Under the pieces are notes generated by a model that saw only the letters and a program-made list of their open reading frames with translations, made no database searches and had not been told where the DNA came from. A DNA stretch of 48,459 nucleotides from a virus. The DNA lies in IMG/VR virus record IMGVR_UViG_3300032316_000351, positions 1-48,459 of that record. One strand, given 5' to 3'. The first letter of the stretch is position 1, and every line of letters starts with the position of its first letter. Positions 4,258 through 11,892 of the stretch are shown here, piece by piece. A program made the translations under genes and the position numbers.

Positions 4258-4725
4258 TTACTGGAGTAGTACTATTGGCTTCCAGCCAAGCTTCACTAAA
4301 CGCAACAAACCGTGCCGTATCGAGTCGTTCGCATGGCCACCACCACCGACGTGCCAGGTGCCGACCTTGCGAAGCGCGTCGTTGGGAAACATCTTCTTGG
4401 CGTCCGACGGCGACTGAAACACAAGCTTGGTATCGGGATCTACATCATGGTCGCGCATGATCTGCTTGAGGGCGCCGATCTGCTCAAGACTAAACGGCGC
4501 TTGCGAGTTACGCACGGTCTGAGCGTTGATGATGAACCGCTCACACACGACGTCAAACTCAACGTTGTTCGCCGCGCACCATGCAAACGTGTCGCGGACC
4601 GGGCGAGCAAACTCATCGGGCTGGTATTCGCCAGAGGACAACAACGCTGGCTCATTGTTCAGGCTAAGAAAGCTGATTCCGGTAGTTTTACCAGGATCAA
4701 CCGCGAGTACGTACTTCACGTCCAT
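4258..4725 (-). CDS. RuvC-like Holliday junction resolvase
   Basis: 155 residues from ATG 4725, preceded by AAAGGTGG; the longer open frame upstream only reads through the neighbouring gene. Residues 4-16 (KYVLAVDPGKTTG) are the typical RuvC beta-strand with catalytic Asp10. Glu62 lies in VVCERF, and GHANDSIRH near residue 134 supplies the last acidic residue of the RNase H-like fold. The protein should cut branched DNA during recombination or before packaging. It overlaps the deaminase gene by ten bases and belongs to the same operon. Confidence 0.85.
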   Translation of the reverse strand: MDVKYVLAVDPGKTTGISFLSLNNEPALLSSGEYQPDEFARPVRDTFAWCAANNVEFDVVCERFIINAQTVRNSQAPFSLEQIGALKQIMRDHDVDPDTKLVFQSPSDAKKMFPNDALRKVGTWHVGGGGHANDSIRHGLLRLVKLGWKPIVLLQ

Positions 4726-5039
4726 ACCACCTTTGCTACTCCGATACGAGCAAGACGGCGTTCGCACCGCTTGCATGGCTTTGACAGCGCAGGGGTGCCG
4801 TCTCTGCCAACACGCGCGACATACACTGTTGCGCCGCGCGCACGTGTGCCAGCTGCAGCAATTGCCGCCTCTTCCGCGTGAACATGCGCGATACGCCAGT
4901 TATTCGAGTCCGCTGTGCGAAGTTTCTTATTCGTCGCCTCAGCCACAACCACCCCGTTCGCGACGACAACGCACCCATGCCGATACCTGCACTTGCTTGT
5001 CGCAGCAATGTCAATTGCCATTTCAAGAAAGCGATTCAC
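4716..5039 (-). CDS. Small zinc-dependent cytidine/deoxycytidylate deaminase-like protein
   Basis: 107 residues, GTG start overlapping the previous stop as GTGA. The zinc site is plain: H54-A-E56 within HVHAEE, and P88-C89-K-R-C92. These supply the His, catalytic Glu and two Cys ligands of the cytidine deaminase superfamily. It is much shorter than the second deaminase at 7466-7960 and lacks that protein's extra cysteines, so the two are probably not redundant copies. The substrate cannot be read from the sequence: a free nucleotide (dCMP or deoxycytidine) is most likely, and a nucleic acid base is possible. Confidence 0.75.
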   Translation of the reverse strand: MNRFLEMAIDIAATSKCRYRHGCVVVANGVVVAEATNKKLRTADSNNWRIAHVHAEEAAIAAAGTRARGATVYVARVGRDGTPALSKPCKRCERRLARIGVAKVVWT

Positions 5040-5646: not shown

Positions 5647-7485
5647 CTAGTACTTATCTCCCCAGTTTTCAAGAGGGCCGTCGACGTCAGCCGAAAGCGG
5701 TACCGCCCAACCTTCAGTAGTTGTCATACACTCGCGCACCGTGCGCATAACCTCATCGGTGCTACCTCTCGGGCACTGAAGCACAATCTCATCGTGTACA
5801 GGAACAATAAGGAGCTCGGTTAAATCTGCTTGATCCATTTTGATCAAGTTTGCCTTAAAGATCTCCGCTGCCGATGACTGGACCAAGTAATTCACAAGAG
5901 TGTACACTCTATTGTCGTCGCATGGTACTCGCCGGCCAGTCCACGTTCGGACGTATCCTTGCCCTTCCTCGCGCAGCCTGCGCATTCCGACATCTTCAAT
6001 TTGCTTCGTGAACATTGAAACTCCCGGAAACCTGCGATCAAACGCGTCTGAGACAGACTGCATTTGCTCTTTAGACACGCCGGCGGTGAGTGCCTGCTTC
6101 GCGACGCCTGCGCCGTACAGACGACCATAGACCATGCTTTTCACGAGACCGCGGCGCTTATCGCTCTTCGACATTGACGGGTCGCCGTACACTTCACGGC
6201 CAATTTCCGTGAACGGGTCACTTCCAGTAGCATCGGCATGGTTGAACATGTTGATCAGTCCCGGGTCGTTTGACATGCTAGCTACAAGGCGAAACTCAAC
6301 CTGGTCGAGATCGGACGTGATAATCACGTGATCCTCGTCCTTTGGAATGAAGGCGGTACGCACCGTGTCATCGCCCTTCGGCAGCGTCTGCAGCGCAGGG
6401 TCGGTAATCGACATCCGCGACGTGCGCGCGCCTAGAGTCTTCACCGACGGGTGAACTACGCCTCCGATAGACTTGGTTAGGAAGTTCAGAAAGTACGTGT
6501 TCGCTAGCTTGTCAGCCTTGCGCTGCTTGAGCACGATCTCAGCGAGCTGCCTAACCTCATCATTGCCGTTGATCTGCAGCATCTTGAGTTGGTCCTTGGT
6601 ACACGACTTCTGCCCGGTAGGAGTTGTCTCCGTGATCTCAGCTCCGAGCTTCTCGAACAAGCGCACAAGCTGAATGTTGCTCGTGATCGAGGTTCCGCCG
6701 TACGTCTGCTTTGCCCAGGTCTTAACCGACTCGGCGTACTCGGTGAGCTCATCGTACTTGCGCTGCGAGTACTCAAGATCTACGCGGGCGCCATTGAGTT
6801 CCATCCGCGTGACAATTCGACGCGCAGCCATCTCGAGCTCGTACGGACGGTTATACGCACCGCCAGGGCCGCACTTGTCCCAGAACATGTGCCACAGGCG
6901 CATCGTCAAGACTGTGTCAAGCGCACCGTACGCCCAGTATGGTTGGAAGTTGATCGGGACAGTGCCCCACGTCCAGCCGTTCTTGGCCAGCTCTGCGTCG
7001 AGTGTGTCCTGCAGCGCCACCGCGCGACCGTCGACGTGCAACGCCGCGAGGCGCTTGAGCGCGCCGGAGCCGAGAGGGTCGATGATATGAGCCATGATCA
7101 TCGTGTCATGCGCACGGTGCCATGGCATTTCCCAGCGTGATCGAATGTCAAACCAGCGCGCCTCGAATGCGATGTTGTGACACACGATCGGGCCGTCGAA
7201 TCGGTCCATGGCCTCGTAGAAGACGCCGGACCATTCCTCCCATGGAATCGACCAGCCCTGCATCCCATCGCCGACTTGCACCAGGCGCAGACGCCCGTGC
7301 CATGGTGACAGCGCATCACCGCGAGGGTTGCCAGGTAGCTCCCCGGTCTCAGTGTCAATCGCGATTGCGTTTAGCGGGCGGCGCTCACCGAGCCAGCGAA
7401 GAAACTCACCGGCCTTGTCGACAGAGTCGACAAGGTGAAGCTGAACATCCGCTAGGTTATTTGTTTCAGACAAGCGAGTCAACAT
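5647..7485 (-). CDS. Family A DNA polymerase with 3'-5' exonuclease domain
   Basis: About 612 residues if it starts at ATG 7485; TTG 7482 and TTG 7473 are possible alternatives. The open frame extends to 7644 only because it shadows the deaminase gene. Exonuclease motifs are AIDTETG (Asp44), CHNIAFEARW and YGALDTV. Polymerase motif A is DLDQVEFR (about 390), the O-helix is RRGLVKSMVYGRLYG (about 445), and motif C is VPVHDEIV (about 567). There is no 5'-3' exonuclease domain, as in T7-type and many actinophage replicative polymerases. A Tyr occupies the O-helix position equivalent to E. coli F762. It ends in TAG and is followed two bases later by the endonuclease VII-like gene. Confidence 0.95.
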   Translation of the reverse strand: MLTRLSETNNLADVQLHLVDSVDKAGEFLRWLGERRPLNAIAIDTETGELPGNPRGDALSPWHGRLRLVQVGDGMQGWSIPWEEWSGVFYEAMDRFDGPIVCHNIAFEARWFDIRSRWEMPWHRAHDTMIMAHIIDPLGSGALKRLAALHVDGRAVALQDTLDAELAKNGWTWGTVPINFQPYWAYGALDTVLTMRLWHMFWDKCGPGGAYNRPYELEMAARRIVTRMELNGARVDLEYSQRKYDELTEYAESVKTWAKQTYGGTSITSNIQLVRLFEKLGAEITETTPTGQKSCTKDQLKMLQINGNDEVRQLAEIVLKQRKADKLANTYFLNFLTKSIGGVVHPSVKTLGARTSRMSITDPALQTLPKGDDTVRTAFIPKDEDHVIITSDLDQVEFRLVASMSNDPGLINMFNHADATGSDPFTEIGREVYGDPSMSKSDKRRGLVKSMVYGRLYGAGVAKQALTAGVSKEQMQSVSDAFDRRFPGVSMFTKQIEDVGMRRLREEGQGYVRTWTGRRVPCDDNRVYTLVNYLVQSSAAEIFKANLIKMDQADLTELLIVPVHDEIVLQCPRGSTDEVMRTVRECMTTTEGWAVPLSADVDGPLENWGDKY

Positions 7486-7960
7486 CCTCTCGAGAAAAGA
7501 TCGAGACGCGCATTCCGCACGACCTGAGGTACTCGACGACAAGCTCTGGCTTGCGGTGCTTATCAGCGTCGCGCAGGCGCATGACGACACGGGAAAGACC
7601 AGAGTTTGACACAGCCTTGGCGCACGACATGCACATGGACTCACTGACGTAGATCGTCCCTCCCTCGACCTGCGAGCGATCCACGTACAGAAGCGCGTTC
7701 AACTCGCTATGAATGCTCGGGCACTGATCATAGGTGTTATCAAGCGGAGCCTTACCCTGCGCGCGTGGGCAGAAGTCAATGCACTCACCGTTGCGCGGGT
7801 AGCGCGCCGCTGGCCCGTTATAGCCGGTCGAGCAGATGCGATTGTTCGCCGACACGACAACCGCGCCAATTCCAGCACGGGAACAGCGACTGCGCAGAGC
7901 GACAATATCCGCTACAGCCATCCATGTCTCGTCCCACGACGGGCGATCAATCGTCGTCAT
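7466..7960 (-). CDS. Deoxycytidylate deaminase
   Basis: 164 residues from ATG 7960, preceded by GAGGA; the frame upstream overlaps the 62-residue gene and is not used. The zinc site is H84-S-E86 in PSIHSELNAL plus C110-x2-C113. Cysteines near residues 60-64 and 80 resemble the second zinc site found in T4-type dCMP deaminases. The opening (SWDETWMAVADIVALRSRC) is typical of this family. The enzyme converts dCMP to dUMP for thymidylate synthesis. Together with the neighbouring thymidylate synthase homologue and dNMP kinase it forms a deoxynucleotide supply cluster. It overlaps the polymerase by up to 20 bases. Confidence 0.88.
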   Translation of the reverse strand: MTTIDRPSWDETWMAVADIVALRSRCSRAGIGAVVVSANNRICSTGYNGPAARYPRNGECIDFCPRAQGKAPLDNTYDQCPSIHSELNALLYVDRSQVEGGTIYVSESMCMSCAKAVSNSGLSRVVMRLRDADKHRKPELVVEYLRSCGMRVSIFSREDVDSLV

Positions 7961-8135
7961 CGCGCGCGTCCTCGATCGCGGACCCCGCGCCAAGAACAAT
8001 GCTGCGCGCAATGAGATCAAGTGCCTCACGGCGGGTGAACCCGGCGTTTTTGAGCTCCTGGTACAGCTCGTGCATTTGAATTGCGCCTGCACGAAGCGGA
8101 CTAACGCCGCTTGCCTCGGTGCCTTCGTTGTCCAT
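7947..8135 (-). CDS. Small conserved-looking phage protein, function unknown
   Basis: 62 residues with GAGGAG before ATG 8135. It lies exactly between the thymidylate synthase homologue and the deaminase, overlapping the latter by 14 bases. The middle (MHELYQELKNAGFTRREALD) predicts a compact helical protein, and the end is a run of Asp residues. Short proteins with a YxxLxxAGFxxxEAL pattern are common in actinophage genomes, but I know no function for them. Confidence 0.75.
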   Translation of the reverse strand: MDNEGTEASGVSPLRAGAIQMHELYQELKNAGFTRREALDLIARSIVLGAGSAIEDARDDDD

Positions 8136-8147
8136 TCGACTGCTCCT

Positions 8148-9008
8148 CTACTTCGACTTTTCTTCGTTGTTGCGAATCGACCGCATCATTGAGTCAGTGA
8201 ACCAGCGCTCATTGTCGTCCAACCGCTCAAGCGCTGCAGTGTCATGAACGGCTTCGATGCAGTTTAGCGCGCTACTCGCTACGTCCGACCAAGCACCACC
8301 GGTGATAGTAGGCACGTTAGTGTAGCTGCTCGCGTACTCGAGCTTTTCTGCCGCGTCGTAGTTCTGCTCGTAGATATGCAGCGACCCGACGTGATGCGCG
8401 TACATCCCGGGTTCAATCCCGAGAACAGAGGCCATCGCGATTTGCACGCGAGTAAACTGAAACCAGTCATACGCAGCGCCGAGCCAGACGTCATTTGAAC
8501 GCATGTACACGCTCATGTTCAACTTGCCGTCGCGCACGCGAAATTGATGAAGAATGGTACATGGGTAGTCGCGCTTTTCTGGCTGAAGATCGAGTTGCGG
8601 TGCCCAGATTGTCACAACAGCCTGCCTGGTATCTGGGTCATTTTTAATTCGCTCGATGATAGTTTCATACTGCCCATTCGTGCGCAAGCCGTACGCGCCG
8701 TGAAATAGCCCGTTGTCCTCTGCGTAGTTCGCGAACTGCGGGCCGATCGCAGTTACGAGGTTTGGCACGCTTACGCCAGCGAGTAGCTGAAGTGCCTCGA
8801 CCGCGGCGATACCTGGCACAGTACCGCGGTTAACTCCGAGCGGCAAAGTGTTAAGCGCATCGTCAATAAAAATCACGGCGTCTTCGATTTCGCGTGTTTT
8901 CATTCCACGAGGCGAAACTTCCTTGCCGTTTTCTAAAACCCATTGCACAATGTCGACATAGCCGTTGACGCCATCAGCGACATGCTTGATCTTTACTGCA
9001 GAATCCAC
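8148..9008 (-). CDS. Thymidylate synthase-family enzyme, candidate dCMP hydroxymethylase
   Basis: 286 residues, GTG start overlapping the kinase gene by 16 bases. It aligns without gaps to the E. coli ThyA core: catalytic Cys150 (C146), Arg170 (R166), Asp173 (D169), His211 and Tyr213 (H207, Y209). The position equivalent to ThyA Asn177 is Asp181 (in LGAAYDWFQF). From knowledge of the family, Asn here selects dUMP, while Asp is found in T4 dCMP hydroxymethylase and in the CMP hydroxymethylase MilA. The likely reaction is therefore transfer of a methylene group from tetrahydrofolate to dCMP giving 5-hydroxymethyl-dCMP, rather than dTMP synthesis. Neighbours (dNMP kinase-like, dCMP deaminase, polymerase) fit such a pathway. 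Ordinary dTMP synthesis remains possible until tested. Confidence 0.85.
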   Translation of the reverse strand: MDSAVKIKHVADGVNGYVDIVQWVLENGKEVSPRGMKTREIEDAVIFIDDALNTLPLGVNRGTVPGIAAVEALQLLAGVSVPNLVTAIGPQFANYAEDNGLFHGAYGLRTNGQYETIIERIKNDPDTRQAVVTIWAPQLDLQPEKRDYPCTILHQFRVRDGKLNMSVYMRSNDVWLGAAYDWFQFTRVQIAMASVLGIEPGMYAHHVGSLHIYEQNYDAAEKLEYASSYTNVPTITGGAWSDVASSALNCIEAVHDTAALERLDDNERWFTDSMMRSIRNNEEKSK

Positions 9009-10009
9009 TGCGCGCTCCCAACAGGGTCAAGGCCACGGGCAAATTGCTCGATGGCGCGTCCGTATTGCTCTTTGTCGCCGGAATGAAACCGGCGCACGTA
9101 TTGAGGGTGCGCAAGAGTGCGCACGGGGATCTCCGCGTCGCTTGCCGCGCGCTCTGCCTCGCGCCCAAGTGCGACAGCAATCGGTGACCCTAGAACGCCC
9201 CACAGCCTTTGCAGACGATCAGGGTCACGAATATCGTTCGCGTTCACAATGCCGACGCGTGGCCACAGCGCGTCAGGCAACGCAGAAAGAAGAAACTCGC
9301 CCGAGTTGTTGTTCACCGGCATGAAGGGCAGTCTAGTCTCATCGCCATACTCGCTGGTGATATTTCGCCTATCGCCAAGAAGAAGAACTCGAGGACTGGT
9401 AGAACCAATGTACTCAGGAAACATTGCGCGAAGCGGGGCAGTTTGCTGCTGCGCAAACACGGCGCGATTCACAACCGCTTCGGCCACTCCGCGAAGCGCT
9501 GAGAGACCCTTATCTCCCGGCCTGAGACGTTCAACGACAGACGGGGCAACCGAGATGCCAAAGTCGTATTGCTCGACGATCGCGGCAAGCTCATCTACTG
9601 ACACAAAATCATCACCGCGACGCTCAAGGCGCTCCTGCAGTACTTCAAGAGGCTGAGTCATTACCCATGTTGTCGCGCCGCGAGAGAGCAGAAACAATTC
9701 AACCCACCGCCAACCTGCAGCGCCGAGCAAACCGTACCCGTCCAGATTAGTATGAGGGCGCTTGAGCGGCGCGTACGTGACCTCGCCCCAGTGCCATCGG
9801 TCAGCGATAATTGTTGCTCCAGATGTCGCGAGATCGTCAATCGACATGACGTATTCATTCAACACCCAGCGACGAGATTCCTCGAGCGGTCGACCTTTAT
9901 GGAAGGTGTTAATCGGTGAAGCGCCGGAGATTTTAGATACTGCGCTTTTTATAGCGTCCAGCATGGAGCTTTTTCCGACCGCGTCCGGACCTTCAATAAT
10001 GATGAACAT
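8993..10009 (-). CDS. P-loop deoxynucleotide kinase fused to a uracil-DNA-glycosylase-like domain
   Basis: 338 residues. Residues 1-160 look like thymidylate kinase: P-loop GPDAVGKSS (7-15), ADRWHWGEVTY near residue 70 in place of the DR-Y/H motif, and a lid-like LQERLERRGDD. Residues 205-325 form a second domain: VLLLGD at 208, LPF and N-S-G near 228-236, IVNANDI at 254, VALGRE at 279 and HPQYVRRF at 301. This order resembles the uracil-DNA-glycosylase fold (GEAPG, PF...SG, ALG, HPS), but the catalytic motifs are degenerate. I infer a nucleotide-sensing or base-handling domain attached to the kinase. It is the first gene after a likely promoter and precedes the thymidylate synthase homologue, as expected for a kinase phosphorylating (hydroxymethyl-)dNMPs. 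The kinase call is firm; the second domain is moderate. Confidence 0.75.
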   Translation of the reverse strand: MFIIIEGPDAVGKSSMLDAIKSAVSKISGASPINTFHKGRPLEESRRWVLNEYVMSIDDLATSGATIIADRWHWGEVTYAPLKRPHTNLDGYGLLGAAGWRWVELFLLSRGATTWVMTQPLEVLQERLERRGDDFVSVDELAAIVEQYDFGISVAPSVVERLRPGDKGLSALRGVAEAVVNRAVFAQQQTAPLRAMFPEYIGSTSPRVLLLGDRRNITSEYGDETRLPFMPVNNNSGEFLLSALPDALWPRVGIVNANDIRDPDRLQRLWGVLGSPIAVALGREAERAASDAEIPVRTLAHPQYVRRFHSGDKEQYGRAIEQFARGLDPVGSAQWILQ

Positions 10010-10068: not shown

Positions 10069-10539
10069 CTATGGGATAACTTCGACGCGATAGATCGCTT
10101 CAATACTTGGGTCAACAGCAGAAGCTTCGTCAAGCAAGCGTTGAGCGACGTTAGTGAGATAGCGCGCGCCGCCTTGATCATACTTGTACAGGGCTTCAAG
10201 TACCGCGTCAGGGTCATCGCTTACCTGCGCCCAGTAGCGGTACTTTTCCGGGAACACCATCATGGCCTCTACCGACGGCTTACATTCTGCGCAAGGAATA
10301 GCCGCCTGCGGCAGCGCGCTTGCCAAGGACTCGTGTAGTCCGTAGCGCTTAACCAGTGGGCACGCGGCACCGTGATACACGAGAGAGACGCCTACGCGCG
10401 ACAGAACGTATGAGCCGCTCTTTGTGCGATACAGCTTAAACTCGATCCATCGATCAGAGTTCCGGCGCCACGAAGTCGAAGATCCCAGGAGAGTCCCGTC
10501 AAATTGCAACTTCCGCGAACCATCCATTACCTCAAACAT
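10069..10539 (-). CDS. Hypothetical phage protein with CxxC motif
   Basis: 156 residues, ATG 10539 with AGGAG eight bases upstream; stop TAG. The N-terminal half is beta-rich (FEVMDGSRKLQF, WIEFKLYRTKSGSYVLSRVG), followed by a His and two separated Cys (Y-H-G-A-A-C; P-C-A-E-C), which could bind a metal. The C-terminal part is helical. Proteins of this appearance occur in other actinophages, but I do not recognise a function. It lies just upstream of the kinase promoter on the same strand, at the right edge of the DNA metabolism block. Confidence 0.7.
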   Translation of the reverse strand: MFEVMDGSRKLQFDGTLLGSSTSWRRNSDRWIEFKLYRTKSGSYVLSRVGVSLVYHGAACPLVKRYGLHESLASALPQAAIPCAECKPSVEAMMVFPEKYRYWAQVSDDPDAVLEALYKYDQGGARYLTNVAQRLLDEASAVDPSIEAIYRVEVIP

Positions 10540-10844: not shown

Positions 10845-11309
10845 CTACCTTAAAACACCCCAGTACCCGTAACCGCGAAATACTGGAGCCTCTTGCGGAT
10901 CAGTGTATTCTTCTCCATAGGTATTGCAAAGACTTTGGAACATAAGTATCGCGTCTGGAGACATCTTAATAGGCGGAGAGAAAATGACATCGTATTTCAG
11001 ACAATAAGATCTCGCCCAAGCGCACAGGGTAGAACCAATAGCTCTACGGCGGTATTCTTCCTCGACATATAGTTCTCTGCAGGCGCCATCTTTAGTCCAA
11101 GATACGTAAGCCTGAGGTAGCGGTTCGGTAAACGATCTTTCCGCAAGCTCGATAACGGTTCCCTCAGTGTTTCTGCTGTCAAAAAACAATGAGGCTACGG
11201 TATCTTCCGAGACCGGGTCAGGAGATACTTCTATCCATGCACCAGCAAAAGCCGCCGGCCATACTCCTGCCTCGATCGATGAATCGACTACTATATTTAG
11301 ATCACTCAT
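10845..11309 (-). CDS. GNAT-family N-acetyltransferase-like protein
   Basis: 154 residues, ATG start, stop TAG. Residues 78-108 fit GNAT motif A: a strand (CRELYVEEE) followed by Y-R-R-R-A-I-G-S-T-L, the acetyl-CoA pyrophosphate loop (Q/R-x-x-G-x-G/A-like, here R-x-A-I-G). The N-terminal region carries W-P-A-A-F-A-G-A-W, shared with the next gene upstream. It is placed directly after the last tail gene, so it could modify a virion protein or a small host molecule. The final Gly of the usual loop is altered, so activity is not certain. Confidence 0.65.
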   Translation of the reverse strand: MSDLNIVVDSSIEAGVWPAAFAGAWIEVSPDPVSEDTVASLFFDSRNTEGTVIELAERSFTEPLPQAYVSWTKDGACRELYVEEEYRRRAIGSTLCAWARSYCLKYDVIFSPPIKMSPDAILMFQSLCNTYGEEYTDPQEAPVFRGYGYWGVLR

Positions 11310-11325
11310 GATCTTTGCCCGTCTC

Positions 11326-11892
11326 TCATAGAATCTCGTCGGCTACATCAAGATCAATAGTCTCAAACTGAGTAAACACTTTTCCAGCATTGAAAAGATG
11401 GTACTCTGACGCTTCGTGGCGCACGCCGTATGTTTGCTCAGCGCGGCTGATCATCTTGGTCACAGGCTCATTGTAAGAATAAGGCTTAGGACCGACGTAC
11501 TCGCTTCTTGTCTGTGCCGTGTGCATGCAAATCATCATAGCGATCGCGCTCGCGATGCCGTTTCCACGTTTTGCCGGCCGAACGTACGTGTCAAATATCT
11601 GACGTAGTTGCTTATCCCACGACATATATGCGTCGGGGTAGTCCCGGGGAAATACGTTAAGAATCGGCTCAGATGACTCAATGATAGTCCCTTCCGGATA
11701 CGTATCATTGAAATACAGCGCTATAGTGTAGATACTTTCTGATTCGATGAAGTTCATCCAGCACCCGGCAAGATCCGATGGCCAGGCGCCAGTGGTAAGG
11801 CTTTCGATAAAGGCTATCCCGTGCGCGTACCCGGGATTCTCAGGGCTCATTGGTATCGCCGAAATAAACGGCCTGCTAAATAAGCTACTCAC
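11326..11892 (-). CDS. GNAT-like protein, paralogue of its downstream neighbour
   Basis: 188 residues from GTG 11892. Residues near 112-125 (TYVRPAKRGNGIASAIAMMI) match the GNAT acetyl-CoA loop R-G-N-G-I-A well. It shares with the downstream gene the element G-x-W-P-x-x-x-A-G-x-W, the phrase F-x-D/S-x-x-x-x-E-G-T-x-I-E and Y-M/V-S-W, so the two genes look like an old tandem duplication. It starts ten bases after the stop of the F5/8-type tail gene. The substrate is unknown. Confidence 0.65.
   Translation of the reverse strand: MSSLFSRPFISAIPMSPENPGYAHGIAFIESLTTGAWPSDLAGCWMNFIESESIYTIALYFNDTYPEGTIIESSEPILNVFPRDYPDAYMSWDKQLRQIFDTYVRPAKRGNGIASAIAMMICMHTAQTRSEYVGPKPYSYNEPVTKMISRAEQTYGVRHEASEYHLFNAGKVFTQFETIDLDVADEIL

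Follow-up and report, generated by a model that had tools for sequence, protein, structure and literature searches.

Why would a virus join a nucleotide kinase to a domain resembling a uracil-DNA glycosylase (UDG), and is that second domain degenerate or does it still read a base? The question is raised by a gene on the minus strand of the window (here the whole stretch of DNA analysed, a 48,459-base virus record that is probably a fragment). The gene spans 8993..10009 (-), ATG start and stop included, and encodes a kinase-UDG fusion protein of 338 aa, referred to below as KU.

A conserved fusion gene

KU was read as one uninterrupted 338-codon frame (8993-10009 (-)). A purine-rich GAAGGA site is directly 5' of the ATG, and on the minus strand GAAGGACGCTT precedes it, a plausible ribosome site. 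The stop overlaps the GTG start of a thymidylate-synthase (TS) homologue (8148-9008) by 16 nt. Full-length relatives with 45-70% identity were present on 60 viral contigs, so the open reading frame is not a chance one. With the C-terminal domain as query, 131 stretches were confirmed; relatives amounted to 66 distinct sequences in 126 loci, and residue invariance was counted over 65 distinct sequences with a mean pairwise identity of 57%. Conserved KU patterns had no relative among 84,980 bacterial and archaeal species genomes (one per species). The whole protein was modelled by AlphaFold2 with pLDDT 91 and pTM 0.92. The original prediction of a fusion was confirmed: a single 338-aa ORF combines a thymidylate-kinase-like half with a 140-aa UDG-fold domain. 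KU is a real, conserved and under-annotated domain fusion, and no paper on a kinase-UDG fusion was found in the open-licence literature.

The kinase half

The N-terminal nucleotide kinase domain (residues 1-195, 9425..10009 (-)) was matched over residues 1-150 by PHROG_761 'thymidylate kinase' (E = 1.3e-11). A profile of 20 KU relatives matched YorR of prophage SPbeta (2axp/3kb2, E = 5e-11) plus thymidylate kinases, and the full KU model also matched YorR/TMPK structures by fold; annotation, profile and fold thus agree with the thymidylate kinase-like N-terminal half that had been claimed. Both marks of a thymidylate kinase-like dNMP kinase are present. The P-loop GxDxxGK[ST] reads GPDAVGKS (residues 7-14, 9968..9991 (-)), with G7, D9, G12 and K13 invariant in 65/65, and the TMPK-type DR motif reads DRWHWGEVTY (residues 70-79, 9773..9802 (-); DRFVYSNLVY in YorR), its sampled positions being invariant in 65/65. 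SPbeta YorR (2axp, 3kb2) is the closest solved kinase to this half and, unlike KU, has no UDG domain. When the kinase pattern WHWGEVTY was searched as well, every match returned also had the C-terminal domain. Operon context suggests that the substrate of the kinase is modified dCMP.

The C-terminal domain

The C-terminal domain (residues 196-338, 8996..9424 (-)) was assigned to the UDG fold by its AlphaFold2 model, Foldseek and HHalign. Modelled alone, it had pLDDT 84, and the top 37 Foldseek matches of this model in the PDB were all UDGs, nearly all of them family-4 UDG/UdgX (best match E = 2.7e-5, probability 1.00). TM-scores were moderate, about 0.6 on the query and 0.45 on the larger targets. 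Foldseek on the model of residues 195-338 therefore points to a predicted UDG fold and not to an unrelated one. For profile comparison, a family-4/UdgX alignment was made from plasmid genes, and HHalign was run locally at zero threshold with 200 column shuffles as control. The C-terminal profile scored 31.1 against family-4/UdgX (shuffle maximum 21.6, with 0/200 shuffles reaching 31.1), 49.8 against the phage G type (shuffle maximum 30.9) and 54.9 against AXL3 (shuffle maximum 24.3). The motif order originally read in residues 195-338 (LLLGD, LPF, VNAND, VALG, HPQY) is the UDG order, and it was borne out by Foldseek and by HHalign with its shuffles. A Pfam scan of KU alone gave no UDG match, which is why annotation misses the domain; the best Pfam UDG match among family members had E = 0.011. 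The PDB search by sequence profile returned kinases only, the UDG being seen by the fold and profile-profile routes.

Compared with family-4 UDG, two segments are trimmed: that from N256 to LG is ~25 residues (40-47 in family 4), and that from LG to H301 is 19-22 residues (33-42 in family 4). The F-to-N spacing is kept (27 in KU, 26-27 in family-4 UDG). Across 53 close pairs, the median dN/dS was 0.076 for the UDG half and 0.092 for the kinase half. Judged from these ratios, the C-terminal domain is under purifying selection, kept for a function.

The base pocket

The UDG-superfamily motifs (an acid or polar motif 1, an aromatic, Asn and HPx) are all present in KU, in order. In the unsupervised HHalign alignment, G212-D213 coincides with GE, F229 with the xPF Phe, N256 with the motif 3 Asn, ALG with ALG, H301 with the HPx His and R307 with the Arg six residues further on. 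Motif 1 is G-D-x-R-N (residues 212-216, 9362..9376 (-)), in which D213 takes the place of UdgX E52; D213 was present in 65/65 sequences, and R215 and N216 in 62/65. Likewise found in 65/65 were F229, the base-stacking Phe (UdgX F65; 9323..9325 (-)), N256, the pyrimidine-reading Asn (UdgX N91; 9242..9244 (-)), and, within motif 2 HPQYVRR (residues 301-307, 9089..9109 (-)), H301 (UdgX H178), the pair H301-P302 and R307 (UdgX R184). Invariance of F229, H301 and R307 was partly selected for, as these residues were in some search patterns; D213 and N256 were in none.

Motif 3 Asn of UDGs pairs with the uracil edge, and human UNG accepts cytosine when this residue is replaced by Asp. Since N256 is invariant, a uracil-type ligand is indicated. 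N216 stands in what we take to be the place of UNG's C5-facing residue, so a polar 5-substituent would be possible.

In UdgX, the mutants E52A, F65A, N91A and H178A lost most or all activity, F65A being unfolded (PMC10776899). E52 is common to family-4 UDGs and able to activate water, and R184 helps substrate binding (PMC10359453). The original prediction had noted the lack of an obvious catalytic Asp/Asn at motif 1 and called the glycosylase half degenerate. The observation is correct for the UNG-type catalytic position, residue 214, which is variable among relatives, but family-4/UdgX enzymes also lack one there and carry the acid at position 2 of GE, D213 here, so the lack of Asp/Asn at 214 does not imply degeneration. 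The label 'degenerate' had to be given up, as the acid lies one residue earlier, at the GE-x-P-G place, and all five UdgX counterparts are invariant in 65/65. In sequence and model, the family-4-type base pocket looks complete (D213, F229, N256, H301, R307) and the UDG half looks functional.

KU thus shares with TM0511, TthUDG and Msm UdgX the fold, the acid/Phe/Asn/His/Arg positions and the F-to-N spacing; it differs in having GD and not GE, in the two trimmed segments and in its fusion to a kinase. The family-4 motif GE[AG]PG is absent from KU, GDxRN standing in its stead. Cysteines for a 4Fe-4S cluster are likewise absent, there being no Cys in residues 196-338 and no invariant Cys in the alignment. 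So is the UdgX KRRIH R-loop with its covalent His, the segment after N256 having 25 residues.

Gene cluster and probable cytosine modification

The neighbouring TS homologue (8148..9008 (-)) is a thymidylate-synthase superfamily enzyme of the dCMP type (PF00303, E = 6e-26), with CMP 5-hydroxymethylase MilA as its best PDB match. Its catalytic C150, its deoxyribose pair R128 and S171 and its D181 at the cytosine-specificity site align with MilA C155, K133, A176 and D186, respectively. Enzymes that prefer deoxyribose and cytosine have R, S and D at the MilA K133, A176 and D186 sites (PMC5175136), and the equivalent specificity residue in T4 is Asp179 (PMC6400193). The specificity-site D was found in 30/30 distinct TS homologues tested, and also in those of phage G, AXL3, PW916 and Sixama. 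The candidate dCMP hydroxymethylase proposed earlier is accordingly dCMP-type by three specificity residues (PMC5175136), its sequence being compatible with a hydroxymethyl or a methyl product. The dCMP deaminase that had also been claimed follows the TS homologue (7466..8092 (-); PF00383, E = 1e-15, PHROG_174). DNA polymerase A (5647..7644 (-); Pfam and PHROG) belongs to the same gene cluster, and directly upstream of KU is a 156-aa protein of no assigned function (10069..10539 (-)), without a Pfam or PHROG match.

Among distinct loci long enough, the TS homologue adjoins KU in 64/64, the dCMP deaminase is present in 60/60 and polA in 58/58. The 156-aa upstream gene, with ~61-83% identity, was found in 62/62 relatives long enough, and its product is likely a pathway partner. 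The earlier claim of a base-binding domain on a dNMP kinase is upheld as a UDG-fold domain within a dCMP-modification operon, and the gene set is probably a cytosine-replacement cassette. An all-alpha dUTPase-type gene (PF08761) was present in 15/17 records (13 related contigs, DSL-LC01 and phage G), and an argument from the lack of a dUTPase was therefore dropped; PF00692 dUTPase was absent.

Two side observations concern the window. A second, short deaminase-family gene (107 aa, 4716-5039 (-)) is in the same cluster and occurs in only some relatives. Upstream of the cluster, two adjacent genes (10845-11892 (-)) are alike in sequence pattern, and the first of the pair has a weak GNAT acetyltransferase match.

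Relatives and related systems

A direct KU orthologue (49% full-length identity, same operon) is the 'thymidylate kinase' WJZ48531 of Actinomycetia phage DSL-LC01, a metagenome-assembled phage in whose record the UDG domain is not recognised. Glycosyltransferase-like genes, a UDP-galactopyranose mutase and dUTPase_2 lie a few kb downstream of its cassette (L134, 7285-10903); further decoration of the modified base by the sugar genes is possible.

The fusion, which the earlier reading had proposed to survey in other phages, recurs as a two-domain protein in Stenotrophomonas phage AXL3, Pseudoxanthomonas phage PW916 and Bacillus phage G; in each case a dCMP-type TS homologue and a dCMP deaminase are encoded next to it. 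In phage G, gp315 keeps the domain order of KU, and its C-terminal domain matched PF03167 directly (E = 3e-13). As for KU, the neighbouring genes encode a TS homologue of D type and a dCMP deaminase. Identity to KU is 22%, motif 1 is QNPG and a longer loop after motif 3 is retained. In BFVD, gp315 was the best fold match of KU, with a few other full-length matches. The gp315 relative L131 also has both domains, and a scan for further phage-G-like fusions gave nothing new. In a 504-kb phage (L132, 4989-6649), the dCMP deaminase has an apparent in-frame intein-like insert, and the kinase preceding it carries a truncated UDG-domain remnant.

AXL3 gp29 and the PW916 ORF were found through a relaxed search and have the domain order and cassette of KU. 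They share the motifs HPQYWKRF and WVNADEL, and their both-domain profile matched KU with P = 5.6e-13. Their motif 1 is GEDFG, compared with GDxRN in KU, and at the sequence level this GE is a bridge from KU to family 4. AXL3 gp29 is annotated as a thymidylate kinase only, and the PW916 ORF is unannotated. A PRA-PH pyrophosphohydrolase adjoins the fusion gene; in AXL3 it is in place of the all-alpha dUTPase-type. In MetaGPA modified contigs, PRA-PH is found together with domains of TS and of dCMP deaminase (PMC8670742). AXL3 has a separate ThyX gene, and its cassette genes are annotated 'thymidylate synthase' and 'thymidylate kinase' (PMC7504290). Of 37 restriction enzymes, only 2 cut its DNA, and the sites of both consist of A and T alone (PMC7504290). 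Replacement of cytosine would be expected to give this result; the DNA behaves as if its G:C pairs were modified.

UDG domains are also found at the N-terminus of PolA in SPO1 (gp31), Serbin and Lebethron (loci L139 3962-5161 for SPO1, L148 and L149), phages that encode modification enzymes of the TS family. The Serbin and Lebethron domains have GD-x-x-N in common with KU, but the fusion partner is a polymerase and not a kinase, and the reading Asn is Pro or Ser. The divergent TS homologue of Serbin and Lebethron also has the specificity-site D. In Gordonia phage Sixama the TS homologue is D-type, the kinase lacks the UDG half and Pfam detected no UDG gene. Weak matches in Streptomyces phage Satis and Brevundimonas had no kinase-UDG context and were discarded.

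Possible functions of the fusion

The explanation we prefer, tentatively and at somewhat below even chances, is that KU is a bifunctional cytosine-replacement protein: a kinase for (hydroxymethyl)dCMP whose UDG-like pocket excludes uracil-type nucleotides. The coupled TS homologue would hydroxymethylate (or methylate) dCMP, and the kinase half, as the pathway implies, would phosphorylate the modified dCMP, and perhaps dTMP too, toward the triphosphate. The UDG-like half, less certainly than the kinase role, would act as a checkpoint against pyrimidines of the uracil type. Its ligand would be dUMP or, chiefly, 5-hydroxymethyl-dUMP, a mutagenic product to be expected from the action of the nearby deaminase on hydroxymethyl-dCMP, and binding would probably lead to cleavage of the glycosidic bond. 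This nucleotide would then be removed prior to phosphorylation and incorporation. Hydroxymethyl-dUMP is an attractive candidate ligand because cutting dUMP would cost dTMP; that drain on dTMP synthesis also counts against the checkpoint if dUMP is what is hydrolysed. UDGs act on DNA and are not known to hydrolyse free dUMP efficiently. Their normal need for DNA also weighs against a checkpoint, and R307 is kept, as would be expected for a DNA substrate too. The UDG half is not essential to such pathways, since Sixama combines its D-type TS homologue with a kinase that lacks it. The narrower proposal, a phage mononucleotide N-glycosidase fused to an hm-dCMP kinase that destroys hm-dUMP (or dUMP) before phosphorylation, is in our estimate unlikely; if true, the enzyme would be a viral functional counterpart of cellular DNPH1, with an unrelated fold.

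The same pocket could belong to a true DNA glycosylase that removes U or hmU arising from deaminated (hydroxymethyl)cytosine, with kinase fusion serving only to express the two together or to bring the glycosylase to where replication takes place. This is possible, if on the unlikely side: all five catalytic or substrate-binding residues of UdgX have counterparts, the 13 related contigs and DSL-LC01 (all genome fragments, in which other repair genes may be missed) yielded no stand-alone PF03167 gene, and the related PolA-fused domains of SPO1, Serbin and Lebethron belong to enzymes working on DNA. However, family-4 UDG has 11-22 more residues in the segments that follow motif 3 and precede motif 2, and the domain is joined to a mononucleotide kinase whose operon serves nucleotide biosynthesis. 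Rather unlikely, in our judgement, is a non-catalytic nucleotide sensor or substrate-selecting lid, by which the kinase would accept modified dCMP and reject dUMP or dCMP without bond cleavage. Variability at position 214, a motif 1 that depends on lineage (GDxRN in the window, GEDFG in AXL3, QNPG in phage G) and loss of the reading Asn (P or S) in the PolA-fused relatives would suit such a domain, but D213, F229, N256, H301 and R307 are invariant at 57% mean identity, beyond generic binding need.

Two further explanations have little weight. A conventional route to thymidylate (from dCMP through dUMP and dTMP to dTDP), with an incidental C-terminal domain, would be implied for AXL3 (PMC7504290) and DSL-LC01 by the names under which the genes are annotated, 'thymidylate synthase' and 'thymidylate kinase'. 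It is very improbable given the TS specificity-site D in every member tested, the additional ThyX of AXL3, the resistance of AXL3 DNA to G/C-site enzymes (PMC7504290) and the purifying selection on the C-terminal domain. That the UDG likeness is a chance motif match, residues 195-338 having another fold, is scarcely credible: KU has no direct Pfam UDG match and the best family member reached only E = 0.011, but Foldseek, HHalign with its shuffle control and phage G gp315 all stand against it.

Implications

Phages that replace cytosine must exclude plain dC and uracil-type by-products from their DNA; the literature searched described no checkpoint of this kind coupled to a kinase. The 'thymidylate kinase' and 'thymidylate synthase' genes of the cultured phage AXL3 can be re-read as a likely cytosine-modification cassette, which fits the published restriction resistance. 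The occurrence of the UDG fold on two enzymes of DNA precursor supply or synthesis (a dNMP kinase and PolA) in phages with TS-type modification suggests that the fold serves more generally to read bases.
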